Source: a virus
Reading direction: 5' to 3' (one strand)
IMG/VR virus record: IMGVR_UViG_3300009082_000040
Coordinates: 1-35,561 of that record
DNA: 35,561 nucleotides
Within the stretch, counting starts at the first letter, position 1, and every line of letters starts with the position of its first letter. Below, in pieces: positions 2,955 to 30,206 of this stretch. A program made the position numbers and the translations under genes. The notes below the pieces were generated by a model. It was not told the origin of the DNA. It saw only the letters and a list, made by a program, of their open reading frames with translations, and did no database searches.

Positions 2955-3871
2955 ACTAATCCTCCATGCGAATCAGATAATCCTGCGCACATATTACGAT
3001 ATACGCTTAATTCGCCAAAATTCGTTGCATTACCTGTAGTTGCTATGGTAATATAATCAATATTTGAAGTTAGTGCTGTATCTGCACTTCCAATAGCATA
3101 AACTCCTCTTGTTATACCTGATGCTCCATGACTCACACCTCCTATTGTCATACTACCAAAATTAGTTGCATTGCCAGTAGTTGCAATTTCTACATAATCT
3201 ATAACTGTTGAATATGATGTGCCACCAGTGTATATTCCTCCACCAAATACAGACCGGGTTGTAGATGAACATGCCCCGGAATATCCTCTTGCGCCGGTTA
3301 AATCTCCGAAATCTGTTGCGTTACCTGTAGTTGCGATTGTAACATAATCTATAACATTGGTATAGCCACCACTAATCGTTCCGCCATCTATAACCATCCG
3401 AGTAGAACTACCCGACCCACGAGCACTGTATCTTGAAACGGTAGTATCTCCGAAATCAGTGGAATCTCCAGTAGTAGCAATGGTAACATACTCAATAACA
3501 TTAATATATGTGGTTGTATACCCCCCTGCAAATACACCACGGGTAATATTTGAAAAATCCCCAATTGCATTTGACATTGCAATTAAATTTCCGAAATTAG
3601 TAGAGTTTCCAACTGACGCGATTGTAATATAATTAATACCCTTTGAATTGGATGTTGTATATCCCAATGTAATTAATCCTCTGGTATCTGATGCACATCC
3701 ACCACAGGTATATGCTGCTGCTGTTAAATCTCCAAAATCAGTTGCATTGCCAATTGTTGCGATTTCTACATAATCAATCACATTTTGTGGCCCAGTCCAC
3801 CCTCCAGCAAATACTGCTCTGCCCATTCCAACAACAGGGTAATATCGGGATACCCTATTAATAATTCCCAT
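2951..3871 (-). CDS. Kelch/propeller-like tail protein with six repeats, 306 aa
   Basis: Six copies of a module of about 48 residues run through the protein: (V/I)(I/E)(D/E)Y(V/I)(T/E)IA(T/S).G(N/D).T(D/N)FG(D/N/S/E), then a Gly/Ser/Ala turn and TRG(V/L)..GG. The last copy lacks its final GG strand, while the N-terminus supplies an unpaired strand (GRAVFAGGWTG), as in a closed propeller. Kelch-like repeats of this kind are known in virion tail and receptor-binding proteins. The start overlaps the stop of the large fibre (TAATG) with GGTGATATA in front. A surface-binding or fibre-tip role is likely. The fold is inferred. Confidence 0.75.
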   Translation of the reverse strand: MGIINRVSRYYPVVGMGRAVFAGGWTGPQNVIDYVEIATIGNATDFGDLTAAAYTCGGCASDTRGLITLGYTTSNSKGINYITIASVGNSTNFGNLIAMSNAIGDFSNITRGVFAGGYTTTYINVIEYVTIATTGDSTDFGDTTVSRYSARGSGSSTRMVIDGGTISGGYTNVIDYVTIATTGNATDFGDLTGARGYSGACSSTTRSVFGGGIYTGGTSYSTVIDYVEIATTGNATNFGSMTIGGVSHGASGITRGVYAIGSADTALTSNIDYITIATTGNATNFGELSVYRNMCAGLSDSHGGLV

Positions 3872-6800
3872 TATATCACCACAAATATGCCAGATACCGA
3901 TAAATCACTTGCATCATCGTTAGAACCATTTGCGTCTGTAACAACCTCAATTGCTGCATCCCTTGCGACCACATAATTTGTCGTGTTAATATCAATTACG
4001 GTAGAACTCCACGTTTCAGCAACTGCGACACCCGTATTCGTGTTTGAAGTGCTTACTGCAGATCCACCAACTGACATATTGACCCGTGGTTGGTTTGCCC
4101 CCGAATCATCAACAGACACAGTATGCCTAATCTGAACCAATCTTGCTTCCTGCAAGTTCCAATCAAACTTAACCTTTGCATCTGATGCAAGTAATGCCGT
4201 ATTTGCCGCATCCGCAAATTTGCCCGGAACATAGAAATCAACCTGAACCACTTGAGCAGGATTTGTTGAATAATACAATGCAGTGACATCTCCACCCATT
4301 GGAGCACCGGCAATTGTCATTAAATTCGACGTTATTGCAGTTACAACCCCGTAATACACGACACTGCTAATTGTGTATTTTACGGCCATACCAACTTTGA
4401 TTGACGCGGTTTTATCGCTTGTCATCGTAAGTGTTGATGTGCTTGCAGGAGTTGCAGTAAACGCAGTCTCTGCAGTCCATCCGATTGATGATCCAACACT
4501 TGCACTTATTACACCATCAGTAATAGTAATTCCACTACCAATCTTGACTCCACCTAATGTATCGGCAGATGCAGTTGGTAAGGTATACGATGCTACAGTT
4601 GCCCACGATGCATCGGTACCATCAGTGGTAAGGAACTTGCCTGAATTTCCAGTTTGACTGGGCAATGATGTAATACCCGTAAGACCGCTTCCGTCTCCAT
4701 AAAATTTCCCATTTGAATCAATGGATGCAACTTCTACATTTGCATAATCCCGGACACTTACTTTGTTGACTCCTGCAGCGTCGCCAAGCCGGAGCACCAC
4801 GTTTTCACCTGATGCAGAAGTTATCCACACCGGGTTTTCCATCGGGTGAACCAACAACGTGCATGTGGAATCATTACCATTAACTGCATAACAGACTTTT
4901 ACCGATCTACCCGATGTTGGTCTGACATTGGTAAGCCCCCCGGCATTCGCACCACCAAGAGCAAAGAGCAGATCCCCATTCGCCCATGTCTGCTGTAATG
5001 GGTTAACATACCCTGCAACCGTTCCGGAAGTCTGGCAATCAACACCGGTAACAACACCGCCTCTCCGGACAAATCCATCAATTGTTGCATCACCCGGGTT
5101 CATATCAGACTGAGCAACCCCAATTACCCGTGATTTTGACAGAGTAGTAACATCCACTTTCCATGCAAGGGGAATTCCCGCACTGGTTCCAGAAATATAA
5201 CACGCCTGCCCTTTCCGCAGATATTCTCCGGCGCGAACTGCAATTGTCAAATTTGTTGCTTTTATTGAACCTATTGAGGTTAATGCAGAACCATCAACTG
5301 CCGGAATTCTCGCAGATGCGTCGAGTTGTAAAACATTGGTTGCAGAAGTTCCAACATCCCATGACGCAACGGTTCCCAATGTAGGTTTATTCAGTATCTG
5401 GGAATCGCCGCTTACCGAGTTCCAATCTGCATTTACATTGGATGCCACTGCCCATGCAGCGTCTTTTCGAACATACGAATCCCCATCAATTGGCGCTTCC
5501 TCAATTCCACCCGCCCCAACAATTTCGGTCCATGCTACCAAATAGGGGTCATAATACATCAACATCTGTGATTCAAGAACATAGCATGCCCATCCCGGCA
5601 ATGCGGTCTCAATATTCCAAACCCCGGGGTCTAGCCACGTCACAACCGCATTTGCATTGTCAGCAAATACACCACCAGAATCAGGAGATGCAGACACTAA
5701 AAATCGGTCATTAAAATCAAACGGAAATCCAGGAACGTCGTCTATTATATCTTCAACTGGCGCCTGCCACGATTCAGCCCCCTCACCTGCTGGACCTCTG
5801 GCACCAGTGAGCCCAATCGGGCCTTGTGGACCTTGTGGTCCGGTTGCTCCAGTTGCACCTGTTGCTCCTGTAACCCCCTGTATTCCCTGGTCTCCTTTAA
5901 CACCCTGCAACCCCCGTGGGCCTACAATCGGGCCAACGTTGACCCATATTTCTTCAAATGTCCAAACATAACAATCGCCATCCTCTTCACAATAATACCC
6001 GTCATTGACAACATTCCCGGATTCTGGCAAATCTCCTGACGCAACAACCGTACCTTGCATCTCAATAGAAGTTCCAGGACTTCCAGGTGGGCCTTCGGGG
6101 CCGTCTTCTCCCTGCGGGCCTTGTGCTCCGGTATCTCCTGTCGCTCCATCCACACCGTCAACACCATCTCGTCCATCTGCCCCAGGTGGGCCCCGGATAA
6201 CTGCAGTTCTGTCATACCAGGCCGTATCATCCAAATCGTATTGCTGGAACCCGGATGCAACCGCAATCAACAGCCCATCAACCAACTCATCTGGGTAATA
6301 TATGAAATAAGCGTCTCTTGACGCTACATCCACAAACTGATGATCCGGATCTATTGAGAACGAACTAATGATTTCTTGATTGACATATTTTCCAATATCT
6401 GAATCATAAATCAGCCCCTGCCCATCAACGGGACTTGCAACCATAAAATCAGATAACGTGGAAAACCCATGAACATGTACCACATCTGCAAACTCATCCT
6501 TTGAAGCACCATCGAGATAATTCGCGTTCAAATTATCTACTTTTAAAGTTGACGTGACTGCAAACGGAACTCCTACAGAATCAAATGTTATTAATCCAGT
6601 AATTGTTCTAGGAAGCGAAATATGAACATATTGCGTATGGTCATCGGTCCCAGTAAGATTCTGAAGTGCCGAATGGCTACCAAGACCTGGAAGTTGAACC
6701 CATTCGTCACCATTCCAAACATACGTAAACCCATCATCAATATTACTAACACCCCAACCTTCTACCGGTGGTTCAAAAGACCAAGTAGCCCCAGACAACG

Positions 6801-8337
6801 TGGCAATTTCCGATTCGTGCCCAACAAACACCCCATCTGTATCTGTAGAAGCAACCAAATATCGCCCATCTGTTCCGGGTGGTGTTGATTCAATTGACAA
6901 TACCGATGGCTTCCATGAAATACTTAGAACCAACCCCGAAATATAATCTTTATTTACCGCATCAGTTCCATCAACTGGTTCTGGAAGCCCGGTAATCCGG
7001 TTGCCATTCGTATTAATGGCACCCTGCATTACACCGCCAAGAAGTTTCAAATACGTCCCATCGTGGCCGTGCGGAACCCCATTAACATTATACGTCTGAC
7101 CTGCAGGAATACTGATTGTAGCAGGTAAAATACCATATTTAAACCTAACCAACCCATCTCTATAAACTTTCAAAACTTCCATTACAGAAACCGAATTTCT
7201 GGGTTTTATTACTAACATTAACCTAGGATCTTCCGACCCTACTCCAAAATCTCCATCGCTTCCACCACCGGCAATTAACAACCCACCACCAAATTTGGAA
7301 AACACCTGGGATTTATACAAATTTACAACAAACCCGATATTTGTCTCATTTAGAATTCCCCCCTGATATTGATATGGGGTTATCTGCAATATCCCGGCAT
7401 AAGATTGTGTATCAAGACTTCCGTACGTTTTTAAAATATATTCTCCAGCACCCGCAGAATGCGGAGTTTGTACAAACAACCCGTTCTCAACATATGCCCC
7501 AGACTCAGCATTCTTTACATATTGCCCAAGCGTGTCATTCCACGCAAGCAAACAATTTGTAGTCGCTGGTGGAATATGCGACATCCCAGATTCCCCAGAT
7601 TTAAACCACGCTGCATCTTTCCTCAAATATGGAAACCCATCTAATGGCGCTTCTGAAATCCCCCCAGTTCCTATATTCCTCCATGCAGAGTCAGTCTCAT
7701 TATAAACCATTACCGCATCGAGTTCTTCATTATAACAAGCCCACCCATCTTCGGGGGTATAAAAATACCAAATCCCCTCGTCTTCATGCCAAATTGCAAT
7801 GTCGTCGCTATGCCCGATAAAGTCGCCTACCGCCCCTTCATCAACAATATACCGTGCCCTATCTGGAGGCGATTCAGGCGAAGATACTTCTATTGAAAGA
7901 ATTGGCTCCTGCCAAGAAATGCCCAGAATATATTGGTCTACATACCCCTTCGTAGCAGGCTCGTGCGTCAAAACCGGATATTCAAGATTCAAAACCCGGT
8001 TTCCAAGCAAATTCAAATCGTTGTCTTCAGTAATCAGGATTTCAGTACCTGCAATAGATTTTCCACTGGTATCATCAAAAATAGCAATTGCACGATCTGT
8101 TACAGAACTCGGGCCCGTTACATCTCCCAACCCTGCGCCAATAACTGGTTTATTGATGTATTTCCCAGTTGCTGCATCATACCCAATATAATCCCCGGAT
8201 GCCGGGTCTACCACATTCACATCTGTAAGATCTACAAGGGAAGCAACAGCAACAATCCCTGATATGTATAGAGGGTTGCCATCTACTCCCAGTCTCTCTC
8301 CATCTGAATCAATCAGTATAACTTCTCTTTCTGCCAT
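3871..8337 (-). CDS. Giant collagen-like tail fibre protein, 1488 aa
   Basis: Two Gly-X-Y collagen-like segments lie near residues 714-756 ([16 protein letters not shown] and on) and 804-851 ([16 protein letters not shown] and on). Three copies of a module with the pattern W..P......Y.V....G.F..H...I....WYF..P..GW surround them, near residues 138-225, 454-560 and 855-945. The first is preceded by ATKGYVD and the second by AVNKDY, both typical of tailed-virus fibres. The C-terminal part has fibre-type [11 protein letters not shown] and [13 protein letters not shown] motifs. I chose the ATG at 8337 because GGAGG lies 7 bases upstream. A TTG at 8367 is possible but has no ribosome site. This is a trimeric fibre by analogy, probably the receptor-binding shaft. 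Confidence 0.88.
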
Positions 8338-8438
8338 TATTCTTCCTCCGGTGAAGCCACCTGACAATACAGGGGGTTACCCGAAATTCCCACCGGGTTC
8401 CCGTCACCATCAACTAAAATTATCGAATCTTGTGCCAT
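8337..8438 (-). CDS. 33-aa protein resembling the fibre N-terminus
   Basis: This small gene sits between portal and fibre. It starts two bases after the portal stop with an AGGAGA ribosome site and ends in a TAATG overlap with the fibre start. Its product, MAQDSIILVDGDGNPVGISG followed by NPLY, lines up with the fibre start [20 protein letters not shown] followed by NPLY, so the two are paralogous over about 25 residues. The N-terminus of a fibre is normally the part that docks on the virion. A free copy could occupy or cap the same docking site, or be the remnant of a duplicated fibre. Confidence 0.7.
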   Translation of the reverse strand: MAQDSIILVDGDGNPVGISGNPLYCQVASPEEE

Positions 8439-18201: not shown

Positions 18202-18672
18202 CTAGACTTCGTTCAGTCTTGCAAATTCACCATAGTGCTGCATTGCTGCCGCATTATATGCTCTTGCAGCATCTTCTGCAGTATCAAATGTTCCAAGGTG
18301 TATTCTCCTCCTATTGTCGTAAATCTGGGCTGTGAATCTCCTGGATGGGTATACCATAGACACCCCTCTATACCCACTGGTGTTATTTCTCTGGAGTTTC
18401 CTGTTCCGCATGTTTTCACTATGGGTGCATACCCGGAGGTTTCTACGCCGGTTATCAAGTAAATCCCCGTTTATGTGGTCTACTTCAAGATGAGGAGGAC
18501 AATCCATTATCCATCGTGCCATATCCACTTCTTTTGGTTTTCCACCTCTCTTCGCTCTATACTTCCCAGTGTATGATTGAATTCGTGCATGCCACTTGTA
18601 TTCACTCAACTCTTCATAATCTCTGTCGTCAACCACTGCAACTTGCCCATAAGTCAACTCAATCTCTTTCAT
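18202..18672 (-). CDS. HNH homing endonuclease with AP2 DNA-binding domain, 156 aa
   Basis: Residues 1-60 form the NUMOD-like/HNH lead-in (ELTYGQVAVVDDRDYEELSE, YKWHAR). Residues near 64-88 hold the HNH core (HLEVDHINGDLLDNRRRNLR). Residues near 95-156 are an AP2 domain (SGYRGVSMVYPSRRFTAQIY, then HLGTFDTAEDAARAYNAAA). Such free-standing HNH-AP2 enzymes cut DNA at recognition sites and spread as selfish genes in virus genomes. It is complete and likely active. It is flanked by 60-bp imperfect direct repeats and sits at the strand-switch point. No ribosome site is evident. Confidence 0.92.
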   Translation of the reverse strand: MKEIELTYGQVAVVDDRDYEELSEYKWHARIQSYTGKYRAKRGGKPKEVDMARWIMDCPPHLEVDHINGDLLDNRRRNLRVCTHSENMRNRKLQRNNTSGYRGVSMVYPSRRFTAQIYDNRRRIHLGTFDTAEDAARAYNAAAMQHYGEFARLNEV

Positions 18673-20706: not shown

Positions 20707-20721
20707 CTTAAAGTGATAACA

Positions 20722-21156
20722 ATGAAACTAGAGTTTAAAATGGCTCTGGTAGGAACAATCATCATGAGTTTCGTATGTATGGCTGTATCCTACGGAGCAA
20801 TGTATCACGTAGCAATGATGCACAGCATTGCTGTTGCTGAGCTCTTCCCATTAACCGTAGATGGGACAATGGCACTCTCAATGTTCATCCGAGTATACTT
20901 CAGTAAAATAGGTAAAGACACCAAAGCACCGTTGCTGATTATGGCCTTCTTCACGGCCACGAGCATCATCGTTAATGCTGTGGCAGCACGGGACGCATTA
21001 GAAGTCTACATCTATGCAATTGCACCAATTGGAGTATTTGCCTGCACTGAATTAAGTGCAATGATAATTGAGAAAAAACCAGTTGAAAAGAAACCAATTA
21101 AAAAACCCCCAACCCGGGGGTCAAACGGGCAATTTACATCAACAAAGGTGGAATAA
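20722..21156 (+). CDS. DUF2637-like membrane protein, 144 aa
   Basis: Four membrane spans are visible: near residues 8-30, 38-60 (AELFPLTVDGTMALSMFIRV), 70-92 and 98-115. The stretch AVSYGAMYHVA...FPLTVDG matches the DUF2637/SpdB-type pattern (vSy.....a.......PlsvDG), which is found in actinobacterial plasmids and mobile elements. The C-terminal 30 residues are Lys/Pro-rich and cytoplasmic (KPVEKKPIKKPP). GTGATAAC precedes the ATG. The role is unknown; it might tether the replication machinery to the membrane. Confidence 0.6.
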   Translation: MKLEFKMALVGTIIMSFVCMAVSYGAMYHVAMMHSIAVAELFPLTVDGTMALSMFIRVYFSKIGKDTKAPLLIMAFFTATSIIVNAVAARDALEVYIYAIAPIGVFACTELSAMIIEKKPVEKKPIKKPPTRGSNGQFTSTKVE

Positions 21157-23937: not shown

Positions 23938-23956
23938 TAAAGAAAAGGTGGTAAAT

Positions 23957-25903
23957 ATGGCAGGAATAGTCCAATTATGGAAAGATAATCTAGAATCATT
24001 CCACAAAGGGGAATTGCTCGTTTTAAAAGCAGAATACCCCAAAAAGGCAACAATTACAATCAACATCAACAACGCATGCCCGGAATTATTTGATGAAATT
24101 GTAAAAGACCCAATGCTCGCTGAAAATGCGTTATATTCAGCGCTCATGGAAGGAAAGTATATACCTCAATGGAATGGGTCAAAACATTCCATAAATGTAA
24201 GGTTCATTGGGTTTCCACATCGCATTAAAGTAAAAGACCTAAACTCAAAATACCTGGAAAAATTCACATCACTCCGGGTAGTTGTAAAGAAAGTAACAAC
24301 GGTCAAACCAAGGCTAGTTCACGCAGCGTTCAAATGTAACGCATGTAAAGAAAAAATTGTGTATATCCCCGTTGAAGACGAGGAAGTAACACCCCCGAAT
24401 GACAAGTGTCTCTGTGGTGGTAAGTCGTGGAGGTTCCTTCTCCGGACCTCACTGAAAAAAGACTACCAACTAATCACCGTCCAAGACCCGGCAGAAGATG
24501 GTGCAGGTTCAAAACCAGAAACTCTCATTGTAAAACTATTAGACGACCTGACCGGGAAAGTTCAGCCAGGAAACATAATTGTCATCAACGGCATATACCG
24601 GGGACACCAGAAAAAGAACGGGGCAACACTCGATACATACCTGGACGCAAAATCAGTTGAGATTACGAACAAAGATTTCAGCAAAATAGAAATTACAGAG
24701 GAAGAAATCCGTGAATTCGAAGAACTTGCAAGAAATCCAGAAATATACAGTATGTTATGGTCATCTATCGGTGGAGTGGTCAAAGGATGGGAAAGTGTCA
24801 AACAAGCGATACTACTCCAGTTACTTGGAGGTTGCGAGAAAATTAACGACGATGGCGACCGCTTTAGACCAGATTTCCATATCCTGCTCTGCGGAGATCC
24901 TTCCGTTGCCAAATCGAAGATTCTCAAATCTGCATTCAACTTATGCCCCAGAGGTATTTACGCATCTGGCAAGGCTACATCTGCTGCTGGGCTCACTGCA
25001 GCAGCAACAAAAGGTGCAGATGGAGGATGGGAAATCGAGGCTGGTGCAGCCGTATTAGCCGACAAAGGAATCCTGTTTCTGGATGAACTGGACAAAGTAG
25101 ACAAAGAAGCAGTATCGTCTCTCCATGAAATCCTGGAAGAACAGGTATTACACATCAGCAAAGCAGGAATCTGCGCTGACCTATCAACACGGGAATCGTG
25201 TCTCGCAGCAGCAAACCCAAAACGGTCGCGGTTCGATAGAAACCTCGACCTGGCATCACAGGTGTCGTTTGCCCCATCTCTCCTATCCAGGTTCGGTCTT
25301 ATCTTCCTCATGATAGACGAACCAGACAAAAAGAAAGACCGGGGAATTGCAAAGCATATAATCAACTCACACCGGGGAATGACACCAGAAAAGCCAATTA
25401 GTGTCGACACACTCCGAAAATACATCGCACACGCCAAGCAGTCATGTGAACCAGAAATCACTGATGAAGCAGCACAAATGTATGAAGACTACTACGTGAG
25501 GATAAGGGAGAAAACACAGACGGCTATCCCTATAACACCCAGGCAGATTGAAGATATCATCAGAATGTCAGAAGCAAGTGCAAAAACCAGGTTAGCAAAG
25601 ACAGTCGAAAAAATTGATGTTGACCGGGCAATCGCAATTTATGAGTCGGCAATGATGATGACAGCAATGGACCCATCAACAGGAGAAATCGACGTTGACA
25701 AAATGTCTGGTGAAATGTCAAACTTCACCCGTGACGCAATGCAGAAAGTAAAACAACTCAGATGGGATTTCCATGACAGCACCGGGAACTGGCCATCAAG
25801 AGAACAACTAAGAACAGAATGCGAAAAAATAGGGATGACAAAAGAACAAGCAGACAAAATGACCGTGCAGGTATGGAGAGAACTGGGTTTGAATGCATTC
25901 TAA
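23957..25903 (+). CDS. mcm: MCM replicative helicase, 648 aa
   Basis: This is the hexameric 3'-5' helicase that unwinds DNA at replication forks. It has an N-terminal domain with a zinc site (C127, C130, C151, C153). The AAA+ core has Walker A GDPSVAKSK near 313-321, Walker B ILFLDELDK near 372-380, sensor 1 AAANPK near 419 and the arginine finger in LLSRFGLIF near 443. A C-terminal winged-helix-like tail follows (DAMQKVKQLRWDFHDSTG). The length matches archaeal MCM. The ATG follows GGTGG; an in-frame GTG at 23948 is inside that site. No polymerase or primase is seen nearby, so the virus may bring its own helicase and use host enzymes for the rest. Confidence 0.95.
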   Translation: MAGIVQLWKDNLESFHKGELLVLKAEYPKKATITININNACPELFDEIVKDPMLAENALYSALMEGKYIPQWNGSKHSINVRFIGFPHRIKVKDLNSKYLEKFTSLRVVVKKVTTVKPRLVHAAFKCNACKEKIVYIPVEDEEVTPPNDKCLCGGKSWRFLLRTSLKKDYQLITVQDPAEDGAGSKPETLIVKLLDDLTGKVQPGNIIVINGIYRGHQKKNGATLDTYLDAKSVEITNKDFSKIEITEEEIREFEELARNPEIYSMLWSSIGGVVKGWESVKQAILLQLLGGCEKINDDGDRFRPDFHILLCGDPSVAKSKILKSAFNLCPRGIYASGKATSAAGLTAAATKGADGGWEIEAGAAVLADKGILFLDELDKVDKEAVSSLHEILEEQVLHISKAGICADLSTRESCLAAANPKRSRFDRNLDLASQVSFAPSLLSRFGLIFLMIDEPDKKKDRGIAKHIINSHRGMTPEKPISVDTLRKYIAHAKQSCEPEITDEAAQMYEDYYVRIREKTQTAIPITPRQIEDIIRMSEASAKTRLAKTVEKIDVDRAIAIYESAMMMTAMDPSTGEIDVDKMSGEMSNFTRDAMQKVKQLRWDFHDSTGNWPSREQLRTECEKIGMTKEQADKMTVQVWRELGLNAF

Positions 25904-27365: not shown

Positions 27366-27527
27366 ATGGAGAGTGATAAAATCTGCCCGTTTATGAGTCG
27401 GCCAAACATTACCCAAAATTTCAGGCTTGGGATAGTAATTTGTCAGCAGGAACGCTGCATGGCGTGGGGCAAAGTCGGACAACAACCATGGCTTGAGAAT
27501 TTGTATGGGTGCAGGCTGATACCATGA
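27366..27527 (+). CDS. Small Cys-rich protein, 53 aa
   Basis: The pattern CPFMS, then ICQQERCMAWG and a final GCRLIP is of a type common in short phage and archaeal virus proteins that probably bind zinc or a cluster. It starts one base after the previous stop and its own stop overlaps the next start (ATGA). Confidence 0.6.
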   Translation: MESDKICPFMSRPNITQNFRLGIVICQQERCMAWGKVGQQPWLENLYGCRLIP

Positions 27528-27697
27528 CACGTTTATATCAATCTCATTATGTAAAATGCCCGTGGAGAGAAGATGAAAAAGACAATGTGTGTATAATCAG
27601 TATTGGGTATTGCATATCTGATTGTCAATTTTACAAATCACACAATGAACATGCACTCGAATGTGTATATCCTGAAAGGCAACGAGGTAATCGATGA
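27524..27697 (+). CDS. Small Cys-rich protein, 57 aa
   Basis: Cys residues appear in KCPWRE, NVCIISIGYCISDCQFY and LECVYPE. The ATG overlaps the upstream stop. It is one of a run of coupled Cys-rich genes. No family is recognised. Confidence 0.6.
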   Translation: MTRLYQSHYVKCPWREDEKDNVCIISIGYCISDCQFYKSHNEHALECVYPERQRGNR

Positions 27698-27891
27698 TTC
27701 CACCGGTTGAAAAGAGACGAATTCGCGATTGCTCATGGTGTATGTTCTCGGTTGAATCAGGAGATGTGATGGAATGTAGTAATTATATGTCTGGGTATCG
27801 TGATTCGTATTATAGAGGGTTTAGAAACTGCAATTTTAATATGACCACTGAAGAATATGCTGAACTCATCGATTCAGGAGTGATACCATGA
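27694..27891 (+). CDS. Cys/ELID-type small protein, copy 1, 65 aa
   Basis: The layout R.CSWCMFS, then C and C, then TTEEYAELIDSG is repeated in the gene at 28426 (R.CKFCCFS...TISEIDELIDT), so the two are paralogues. GAGG lies in front of the ATG. Metal binding is likely. Confidence 0.65.
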   Translation: MIPPVEKRRIRDCSWCMFSVESGDVMECSNYMSGYRDSYYRGFRNCNFNMTTEEYAELIDSGVIP

Positions 27892-28199
27892 GCGATGATA
27901 AATCATGCCCATTTTGTGGACATACAGACATTGAACATTTTTATAACCGAACTGGTATTGATCATTCGACTTGCCAATATTGTGGGGCATCTGCAAAAGA
28001 TTGGAATGTTAGATATGATTTATCAACCGCCGATCTTGTATCTGAACTCGCAAGCCGGGAGGGTGTTGAGTGTATTCAAACGTATGATTTGGATGAATTT
28101 AATTGGACGGTATGGGACAGAACCGACGATATTCAGGTAAATGGTGGCAGGGTAAGGCGCCCTGCTAAAATCCTAGTGGTGGTGAACAATGAGCAATGA
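27888..28199 (+). CDS. Lar-like zinc ribbon fused to REGV module, 103 aa
   Basis: Residues 1-40 hold CPFCGHTDIEHFYN and CQYCGASAKDW, as in the Lar restriction-alleviation-like zinc ribbons of viruses. Residues 46-103 hold STADLVSELASREGV and end with PAKILVVV, a module repeated in the next gene. It may help the virus avoid host restriction, but that is only a family-level suggestion. Confidence 0.65.
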   Translation: MSDDKSCPFCGHTDIEHFYNRTGIDHSTCQYCGASAKDWNVRYDLSTADLVSELASREGVECIQTYDLDEFNWTVWDRTDDIQVNGGRVRRPAKILVVVNNEQ

Positions 28200-28425
28200 T
28201 GAATATATAAAAAGCATTCCAACTGCTAACCTCGTTGCAGAACTTAAAACCCGTCCACGCGATGAATTGTATCCAAGAATGTTTTTTTTATCTATCGCAT
28301 CTACACCAGATCTCGTCGCTGAACTGGCAAGCCGGGAGGGTGTTGATTACACTGAAGTAGATAATGAAAATGATCTGGAGTTATATGTAGTTGGCCCGGC
28401 AAAAATCCTCGTGGTGGTGGATTGA
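28189..28425 (+). CDS. REGV module protein, 78 aa
   Basis: TPDLVAELASREGVDYTEVD and then VGPAKILVVVD match the C-terminal module of the gene before. The start is GGTGGTGAACA-ATG, and it overlaps the upstream gene by 11 bases. Without the zinc ribbon it may pair with the longer form. Confidence 0.65.
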   Translation: MSNDEYIKSIPTANLVAELKTRPRDELYPRMFFLSIASTPDLVAELASREGVDYTEVDNENDLELYVVGPAKILVVVD

Positions 28426-28611
28426 ATGGTTATTACTCCAGTAAGTATACGAGCTACACGTCCCTGTAAATTTTGTTGTTTTAGTGATTCGTGGGTATGT
28501 GGAAAACAACATGAGCGGGGGAATGCCCCGTGTGATCATCATTTTACAATATCTGAAATTGATGAACTAATTGATACGTATAATGATGGTGGTGGATTAG
28601 ATGACGCCTGA
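28426..28611 (+). CDS. Cys/ELID-type small protein, copy 2, 61 aa
   Basis: A paralogue of the gene at 27694: RPCKFCCFSDSWVCG, then C and TISEIDELIDT. It starts on the base after the upstream stop. The end overlaps a 41-aa gene. Confidence 0.6.
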   Translation: MVITPVSIRATRPCKFCCFSDSWVCGKQHERGNAPCDHHFTISEIDELIDTYNDGGGLDDA

Positions 28612-28726
28612 AGAAATTGCAGCAATTGAAAACATGATCCGACAGAAACGGGTGTGCTATACCTACTATTCCAAAACCTGGATTGAAGCACTTGAATGGG
28701 TGTTAAAGTTACAAAAGAAGGAATAG
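28601..28726 (+). CDS. Small helical protein, 41 aa
   Basis: MTPEEIAAIENMIRQKRVCY followed by TYYSKTWIEALEWVLKLQKK is helical, with a charged end. GGTGGTGG lies 5 bases before the ATG. The function is unknown. Confidence 0.55.
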   Translation: MTPEEIAAIENMIRQKRVCYTYYSKTWIEALEWVLKLQKKE

Positions 28727-29699: not shown

Positions 29700-30206
29700 A
29701 TGGCAGCACCACAAAGAAAACAACGGGTAAAAAACTCTACAACAATTGTAATAGATGATATAAAGTTCACGTCAAAGGCAGAAGCATACTATTACACCAT
29801 TTTGAAACAGCAACTGGATAATGGCGAAATTGAACAATTAAAATTGCAGGAACCGTTTGAACTCCAGCCACAATTTAAAAAGTGTCAGTGCCATGGATGT
29901 GACTTTATCTGGATAAGACCCCCAGACGAAAAACTCCCGGATTATAAACGGTATTACACTGCACGGGAGTGCCCTGTATGTGGGACAGAATTGAAGTTGC
30001 ACCGGGAGATGACATATATCTGCGATTTCCTAGTAACTGACCTGGAAGGGCTTGAGCACGTTATTGATGTAAAGTCAAGCCAATTTTTTCAGACTGAAAT
30101 ATTCAAGATGAAAAAGAAAATTTTTGAGTTCAGGTTCCCGGAGAAGTTACTGGAAGAAGTGTATCCAAAAGTTCCAAAAGGATGGGGGACTGAAAAAGTA
30201 ATATGA
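29700..30206 (+). CDS. DUF1064-type nuclease with zinc-ribbon insertion, 168 aa
   Basis: The N-terminus KFTSKAEAYYYTILKQQLDN G and the C-terminal YICDFLVTDLEGLEHVIDVK SS..F....F.MKKK.FEFRFP match DUF1064, whose members have a PD-(D/E)XK nuclease-like core (E in the first helix, D in YICDF, then DVK). Between them lies a zinc-ribbon insertion (CQCHGC, then CPVCG) of about 35 residues. DUF1064 proteins are considered Holliday-junction or DNA-repair nucleases in phages. The gene starts one base after the preceding stop. Confidence 0.7.
   Translation: MAAPQRKQRVKNSTTIVIDDIKFTSKAEAYYYTILKQQLDNGEIEQLKLQEPFELQPQFKKCQCHGCDFIWIRPPDEKLPDYKRYYTARECPVCGTELKLHREMTYICDFLVTDLEGLEHVIDVKSSQFFQTEIFKMKKKIFEFRFPEKLLEEVYPKVPKGWGTEKVI

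Follow-up and report, generated by a model that had tools for sequence, protein, structure and literature searches.

Two small-gene families with different duplication histories in the replication-side operon of a predicted archaeal tailed virus

A run of tiny overlapping genes in an uncultured, predicted archaeal tailed virus is probably best understood as a group of small early accessory genes within a replication-side operon, at a hot spot of duplication and turnover in which two unrelated families were duplicated at different times. Because the two duplicated pairs differ in their histories and are not linked in other viruses, they point to ordinary turnover of small accessory genes rather than to a dedicated anti-defence unit. 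Below we lay out the evidence for this view, examine the one protein of the run that looks new, and weigh the readings in which some or all of these genes would counter host restriction.

Results

The virus and its run of overlapping genes

The window, by which we mean the whole stretch of DNA analysed here, is one complete IMG/VR virus record of 35,561 bases that encodes, among others, a large terminase and an MCM helicase (23948-25903). When the MCM was compared with 50,697 phage records, all 16 matches were archaeal virus records, as judged by organism name, which is why we call the virus archaeal; we classify it, by sequence, as an archaeal tailed virus. No relative of the MCM was found among 100 pattern matches in GTDB genome contigs.

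On the 3' side of the MCM gene, the + strand carries short ORFs that overlap one after another. Genes A, B, C and D are present there, where a sequence-only reading had placed them (Table 1), and they abut or overlap: A and B by 4 nt, B and C by 11 nt, C and D by 0 nt, and D and the next ORF by 11 nt. The overlapping run continues beyond these four genes, with two small ORFs upstream and one downstream, so that A to D are embedded in a longer operon-like run and are not a free-standing cassette. The first upstream ORF and the downstream one had no family match in Pfam, NCBIfam or PHROGs; the upstream ORF next to gene A was compared with an ORF of a related virus (L006:11644-11796) and gave a score of 48, equalled by 1 of 1000 shuffles. 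Among the neighbouring ORFs scanned against the same three collections, no known anti-defence gene was found beyond the Lar-like ribbon of B. Scans for sigma-70-type promoters and for terminators gave about as many hits as shuffled sequence (8 vs 9.7 and 2 vs 2.6), both kinds of scan being poorly suited to archaea.

The motif GGTGGTG occurs at the 3' ends of B, C and D, just 5' of the next ATG (28175-28190, 28412-28428 and 28587-28603). In B and C it encodes a conserved VVV of the protein family described below as BC1881, and it could double as the ribosome-binding site of the next gene. Elsewhere in the window we noted a DUF1064 protein (29700-30206; PF06356, 74.9 bits), a DUF2637 protein, here in an archaeal virus (20713-21156; PF10935, 39.1 bits), a protein with HNH_3 and AP2 domains that is likely a homing endonuclease (18202-18672, - strand), and a 1498-aa ORF with collagen-like Gly-X-Y stretches that by eye reads as a tail fibre (3871-8367, - strand).

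Table 1. Features of the overlapping gene run and the evidence on which each assignment rests.
Feature	Coordinates	Strand	Evidence
Upstream small Cys-containing ORF, same overlapping run	27366-27527	+	4 nt overlap with next ORF
Upstream small Cys-rich ORF	27524-27697	+	4 nt overlap with gene A; possible homologue of L006:11644-11796
Gene A (ELID-type, 65 aa), CxxC-C-C and a C-terminal helix bearing ELID, divergent	27694-27891	+	ORF; paralogue of D
Gene B, entire	27888-28199	+	
Gene B, N-terminal half, two-knuckle zinc ribbon, shortened Lar-family relative	27888-28025	+	TIGR03655 and PF14354, both sub-cut-off; spacing comparison
Gene B, BC1881 (REGV) module of the C-terminal half, long loop insertion	28023-28199	+	NF033495, sub-cut-off
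Gene C, BC1881 family protein of 78 aa, N-terminally extended	28189-28425	+	NF033495; phrog_5765
Gene D, 61 aa, ELID-type, nearest to the L006 pair	28426-28611	+	Paralogy with A; profile
Downstream 41-aa ORF	28601-28726	+	11 nt overlap with gene D

Paralogy and relative ages of the two pairs

The two ELID-type genes, A and D, are 31% identical over 61 aligned positions (E 1e-7, in a single comparison). Their Smith-Waterman score of 67 lies above the best of 2000 plain shuffles (44) and also above the best of 2000 shuffles in which the cysteines were kept fixed (54), and their likeness is therefore more than that of shared cysteines. Given the numerous small Cys-rich ORFs in this region, one might suspect that unrelated Cys4 proteins have converged and that B and C are the sole true pair. 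The chance of this seems to us close to negligible: not only does the A-D score exceed every cysteine-fixed shuffle, but none of seven other small Cys-rich ORFs from the window and its relatives reaches it (the best, against D, scores 39), and an ELID pair in the related virus L006 is matched both by A and by D. Convergence on the shared cysteines as such was rejected on the cysteine-fixed shuffles.

The C-terminal half of B and gene C are 45% identical over 55 positions (E 2e-9), with a score of 81 against a shuffle maximum of 50, and the likeness persists in the DNA, where 48 nt match at 83% and 26 nt at 88%. Across 23 codons of conserved blocks we counted nine synonymous and two non-synonymous changes (pS 0.45, pN 0.04, the latter biased downward since the blocks were selected for conservation), a difference which suggests that both copies have been retained as protein after the duplication. 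The B/C pair is thus a recent duplication under purifying selection and the A/D pair an old one, which gives the two pairs differing histories.

The arrangement proposed in the sequence-only reading, in which an ELID-type gene is followed by a zinc ribbon plus REGV module, a second REGV module and a second ELID-type gene, with two duplicated families and one pair inside the other, is borne out by these scores, both of which lie beyond their shuffles. Two pairs can be arranged in just three ways (AABB, ABAB and ABBA), the last of which is nested; nesting is therefore not improbable in itself and needs no special cause.

The ELID family and the near relatives of the virus

Gene A is matched by the ELID profile A2, of which it is itself a member, and has no Pfam, NCBIfam or PHROG family above cut-off. 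The family appears to be narrow: we found no ELID protein above chance in phage records and none among 41 pattern matches in GTDB genome contigs, and a scan of the IMG/VR collection recovered it only in L006, a relative of the window virus. With four cysteines and a C-terminal helix, its members look like small proteins that bind zinc. The AlphaFold2 model of gene D has low confidence (pLDDT 54.6).

The searches of IMG/VR yielded two near relatives only, L006 (IMGVR_UViG_3300042808_000082) and L007, with MCM at 74 and 73%, although very near ones may be hidden from such searches. The window, L006 and L007 have in common a backbone in the order MCM-112-132-158-73-223-168 aa, in which the 168-aa gene encodes DUF1064, and the stretch between varies. 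L006 carries two ELID genes in tandem (L006:11967-12409), which arose by a recent tandem duplication of their own, still visible in the DNA (44 nt at 82% and 42 nt at 83%), and no BC1881 gene anywhere in its 48 kb record; L007 carries neither ELID nor BC1881. The L006 pair resembles A and D in belonging to the same family with four cysteines and a helix and in having two copies near the MCM gene, but it is directly tandem, was separately duplicated, stands in a record without BC1881, and has a position relative to a backbone gene (158/147 aa) that is opposite to that of the ELID genes of the window.

These comparisons argue that the two families come and go independently and that duplication has happened here more than once. 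With only two near relatives, insertion and loss cannot be polarised, and since the pairwise scores among A, D and the L006 pair give two near-equal groupings, four such short sequences do not tell whether A and D were duplicated before or after the split from L006. It is at this point that the sequence-only reading, which had taken the four genes for a possible undescribed anti-defence or host-takeover cassette, is not sustained: searched for in other viruses, the genes occur separately and unlinked, and the set does not recur. A conserved four-gene cassette was rejected for this lack of recurrence in the relatives and contigs searched.

The BC1881 family in genes B and C

The REGV module corresponds to the BC1881 family (NCBIfam NF033495, typed as a hypothetical equivalog; PHROG 5765), which consists of small phage proteins without an assigned function. 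Gene C passes NF033495 with 40.5 bits against a cut-off of 27 (profile positions 2-45 of 45) and also matches phrog_5765 (E 4.4e-11). Gene B misses the same cut-off, with 24.3 bits over positions 2-26 of 45, yet it is a clear homologue of C, and its module scores 71.3 bits with an 11-member profile that contains the module itself. The window shares with the family a helix of the form (S)TxDLVxELxxREGV, after which come strands and, at the C-terminus, GPAxILVVxD; it differs in that the module is present twice, that the copy in B is joined to a zinc ribbon and has a long loop, and that gene C has an N-terminal extension, possibly a repeat of the helix. This extension (28189-28290) contains TANLVAELKTR, a weak repeat of TPDLVAELASR in the BC1881 helix that follows. 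It may repeat the first BC1881 helix: a second, weak helix match at residues 6-23 has an E-value of 0.0064, and its score was equalled by 10 of 2000 shuffles.

In two scans of IMG/VR by alignment we obtained 13 and 48 BC1881 loci, which amount to 53 other contigs by name; in 51 of these a BC1881 ORF was found and scored, L038 and L043 giving none. Every one of the 51 scored contigs has one copy per locus (within flanks of up to 3 kb on each side, some loci being shorter), and in one alone, the contig behind L015/L025, is BC1881 accompanied by a Lar-like ORF at a distance of up to 2 kb. This contig encodes the same protein as the Flavonifractor phage Chenonceau. Among the BC1881 ORFs compared, a Lar-like two-knuckle ribbon inside the ORF itself was flagged in B of the window only. 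The joining of a Lar-like ribbon to BC1881, having no counterpart in the other 51 scored contigs, thus appears to be the only new element of the run. Another possible fusion was seen at L065:2635-3144, where the BC1881 module is C-terminal in a 169-aa ORF. Acetoanaerobium phage ANDSL2_ph1 also has two BC1881 copies; among named archaeal viruses, these searches found BC1881 only in Methanoculleus virus Blf4 (with a second record as Methanoculleus virus L4768), in one copy.

A Pfam scan of 51 ORFs near BC1881 at eight IMG/VR loci, covering 50 of 73 neighbours together with L014:3168-4124 (those omitted being mostly short or doubtful ORFs), found HTH proteins, antirepressors, YqaJ and terminase, the usual phage early and regulatory genes, and no restriction-specific family among 25 of the 46 families. 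When viral contigs were scanned with B or C as the single query protein, no relatives were found among 11 and 54 pattern matches, respectively. Neither a recent donor of the BC1881 DNA, sought by exact 20-nt matches, nor a plasmid carrying B was found. Publications that mention BC1881 appeared to concern other subjects.

The ribbon of gene B and the Lar family

The best family for the ribbon of B is TIGR03655, at 25 bits (E 1.8e-5) and below the cut-off of 39.6, and on PF14354 it scores 22.9 bits, below the cut-off of 28.6; four phage Lar-family proteins taken as controls scored 46.8-51.6 bits on TIGR03655. Like the family, B has both knuckles (CPFCG and CxxCG) as well as WNxR, the motif with which the domain ends in the controls, but this motif comes 6 residues after the second CxxC in B and 16 residues after it in all four controls. 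B has therefore lost ten residues of the Lar domain, with BC1881 directly after, and its ribbon is genuinely related to the Lar family, though shortened and short of certified membership. The sequence-only reading had described the ribbon as Lar-like and as a hint of interference with host restriction. The likeness stands, with TIGR03655 as best match and WNxR kept, and the hint is weakened by a score under the cut-off and by the ten residues that are gone. A structure model of B had low confidence (pLDDT 59.7), none of its 717 PDB matches reached E <= 0.001, and sequence matches to solved structures had best E-values of 0.11, 0.74 and 0.5; in view of these values, both lines were discarded as uninformative.

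A comparable order exists in Chenonceau (WAK79774/WAK79775), where a Lar-like ribbon likewise stands directly 5' of a BC1881 protein with an N-terminal extension. There, however, the two are separate overlapping genes, the host is a bacterium, Flavonifractor plautii, and no ELID gene is present among the neighbouring ORFs read. Near these genes is one annotated as a Holliday junction resolvase that is similar, by eye, to the DUF1064 protein of the window. The archaeal virus of the window and this phage may share three small-gene families.

Discussion

The paralogy within each pair, the relative ages of the duplications, the identities of the families and the fact that these families do not stay together are, in our view, well established by the comparisons above. 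What they imply for host defence is a matter of weighing. Restriction alleviation by B is possible, and it could be imagined as the core of a single anti-restriction or host-takeover cassette, with B alleviating restriction via its ribbon, C as a modulator of that effect, and A and D serving as auxiliary zinc adaptors. The likeness of the ribbon to Lar, the tight overlaps between the genes and the recurrence of a Lar-like gene followed by an overlapping BC1881 gene in Chenonceau and in the L015/L025 contig would all fit such a unit. We nevertheless consider it decidedly unlikely, because its members are unlinked in the two near relatives, because Lar-like and BC1881 genes were neighbours in so few of the scored contigs (1/51), and because the ribbon itself is sub-threshold and shortened.

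A narrower alternative is that B alone is a working restriction-alleviation protein and that A, C and D are unrelated neighbours. To our knowledge, most proteins named for Lar restriction alleviation have never been tested, and the stretch from the second knuckle to WNxR, whose length does not vary among the four Lar-family proteins compared, is the very segment that B has shortened, which counts against a Lar-type activity. On the other side, the ribbon retains both knuckles and WNxR, and the literature names Lar as an anti-restriction protein, with a 1995 reference (PMC6158711), and describes lambda Ral as one that speeds modification of unmodified DNA (PMC12707154). On balance this alternative, too, is unlikely. 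Restriction may matter for methanogen viruses, as is suggested by a remark in the available text on Blf4, whose authors weigh, as one possibility, that the narrow host range reflects a host strain without type I restriction (PMC8540584); the discussion in that text does not mention the BC1881 protein. Our searches found no literature linking restriction alleviation, Lar and zinc ribbons. More far-reaching is the idea that B is a two-part anti-restriction protein of archaeal viruses in which BC1881 replaces the lost Lar segment, that C is a free partner or competitor copy, and that the recent duplication is a dosage response to host defence. We regard this as highly unlikely; were it true, BC1881 would gain a role in countering restriction.

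Under the reading that we prefer, that of a turnover hot spot among small accessory genes, an ELID-type Cys4 gene would have been duplicated long ago to give A and D, and BC1881 would have been duplicated recently to give C and the C-terminal half of B, with a shortened zinc ribbon of the Lar-like kind attached to one of the two copies. Nesting could have arisen if a BC1881 gene landed between two ELID genes and then duplicated. The products may be small zinc-stabilised or alpha-beta adaptors that bind proteins, are made early in infection and make contact with proteins of the host; in B, binding of the kind done by Lar-family ribbons would fall to the ribbon, and BC1881 might act as a second contact or as a dimerisation module. 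From their size, their position and the kinship of B with Lar, we infer that the four genes are probably early and host-interacting.

If this modest reading is true, the run shows how, in a poorly known group of archaeal viruses, tiny genes are repeatedly duplicated in tandem and reshuffled, and the fused Lar-like/BC1881 protein would offer a handle on a phage family that has so far been without a function.
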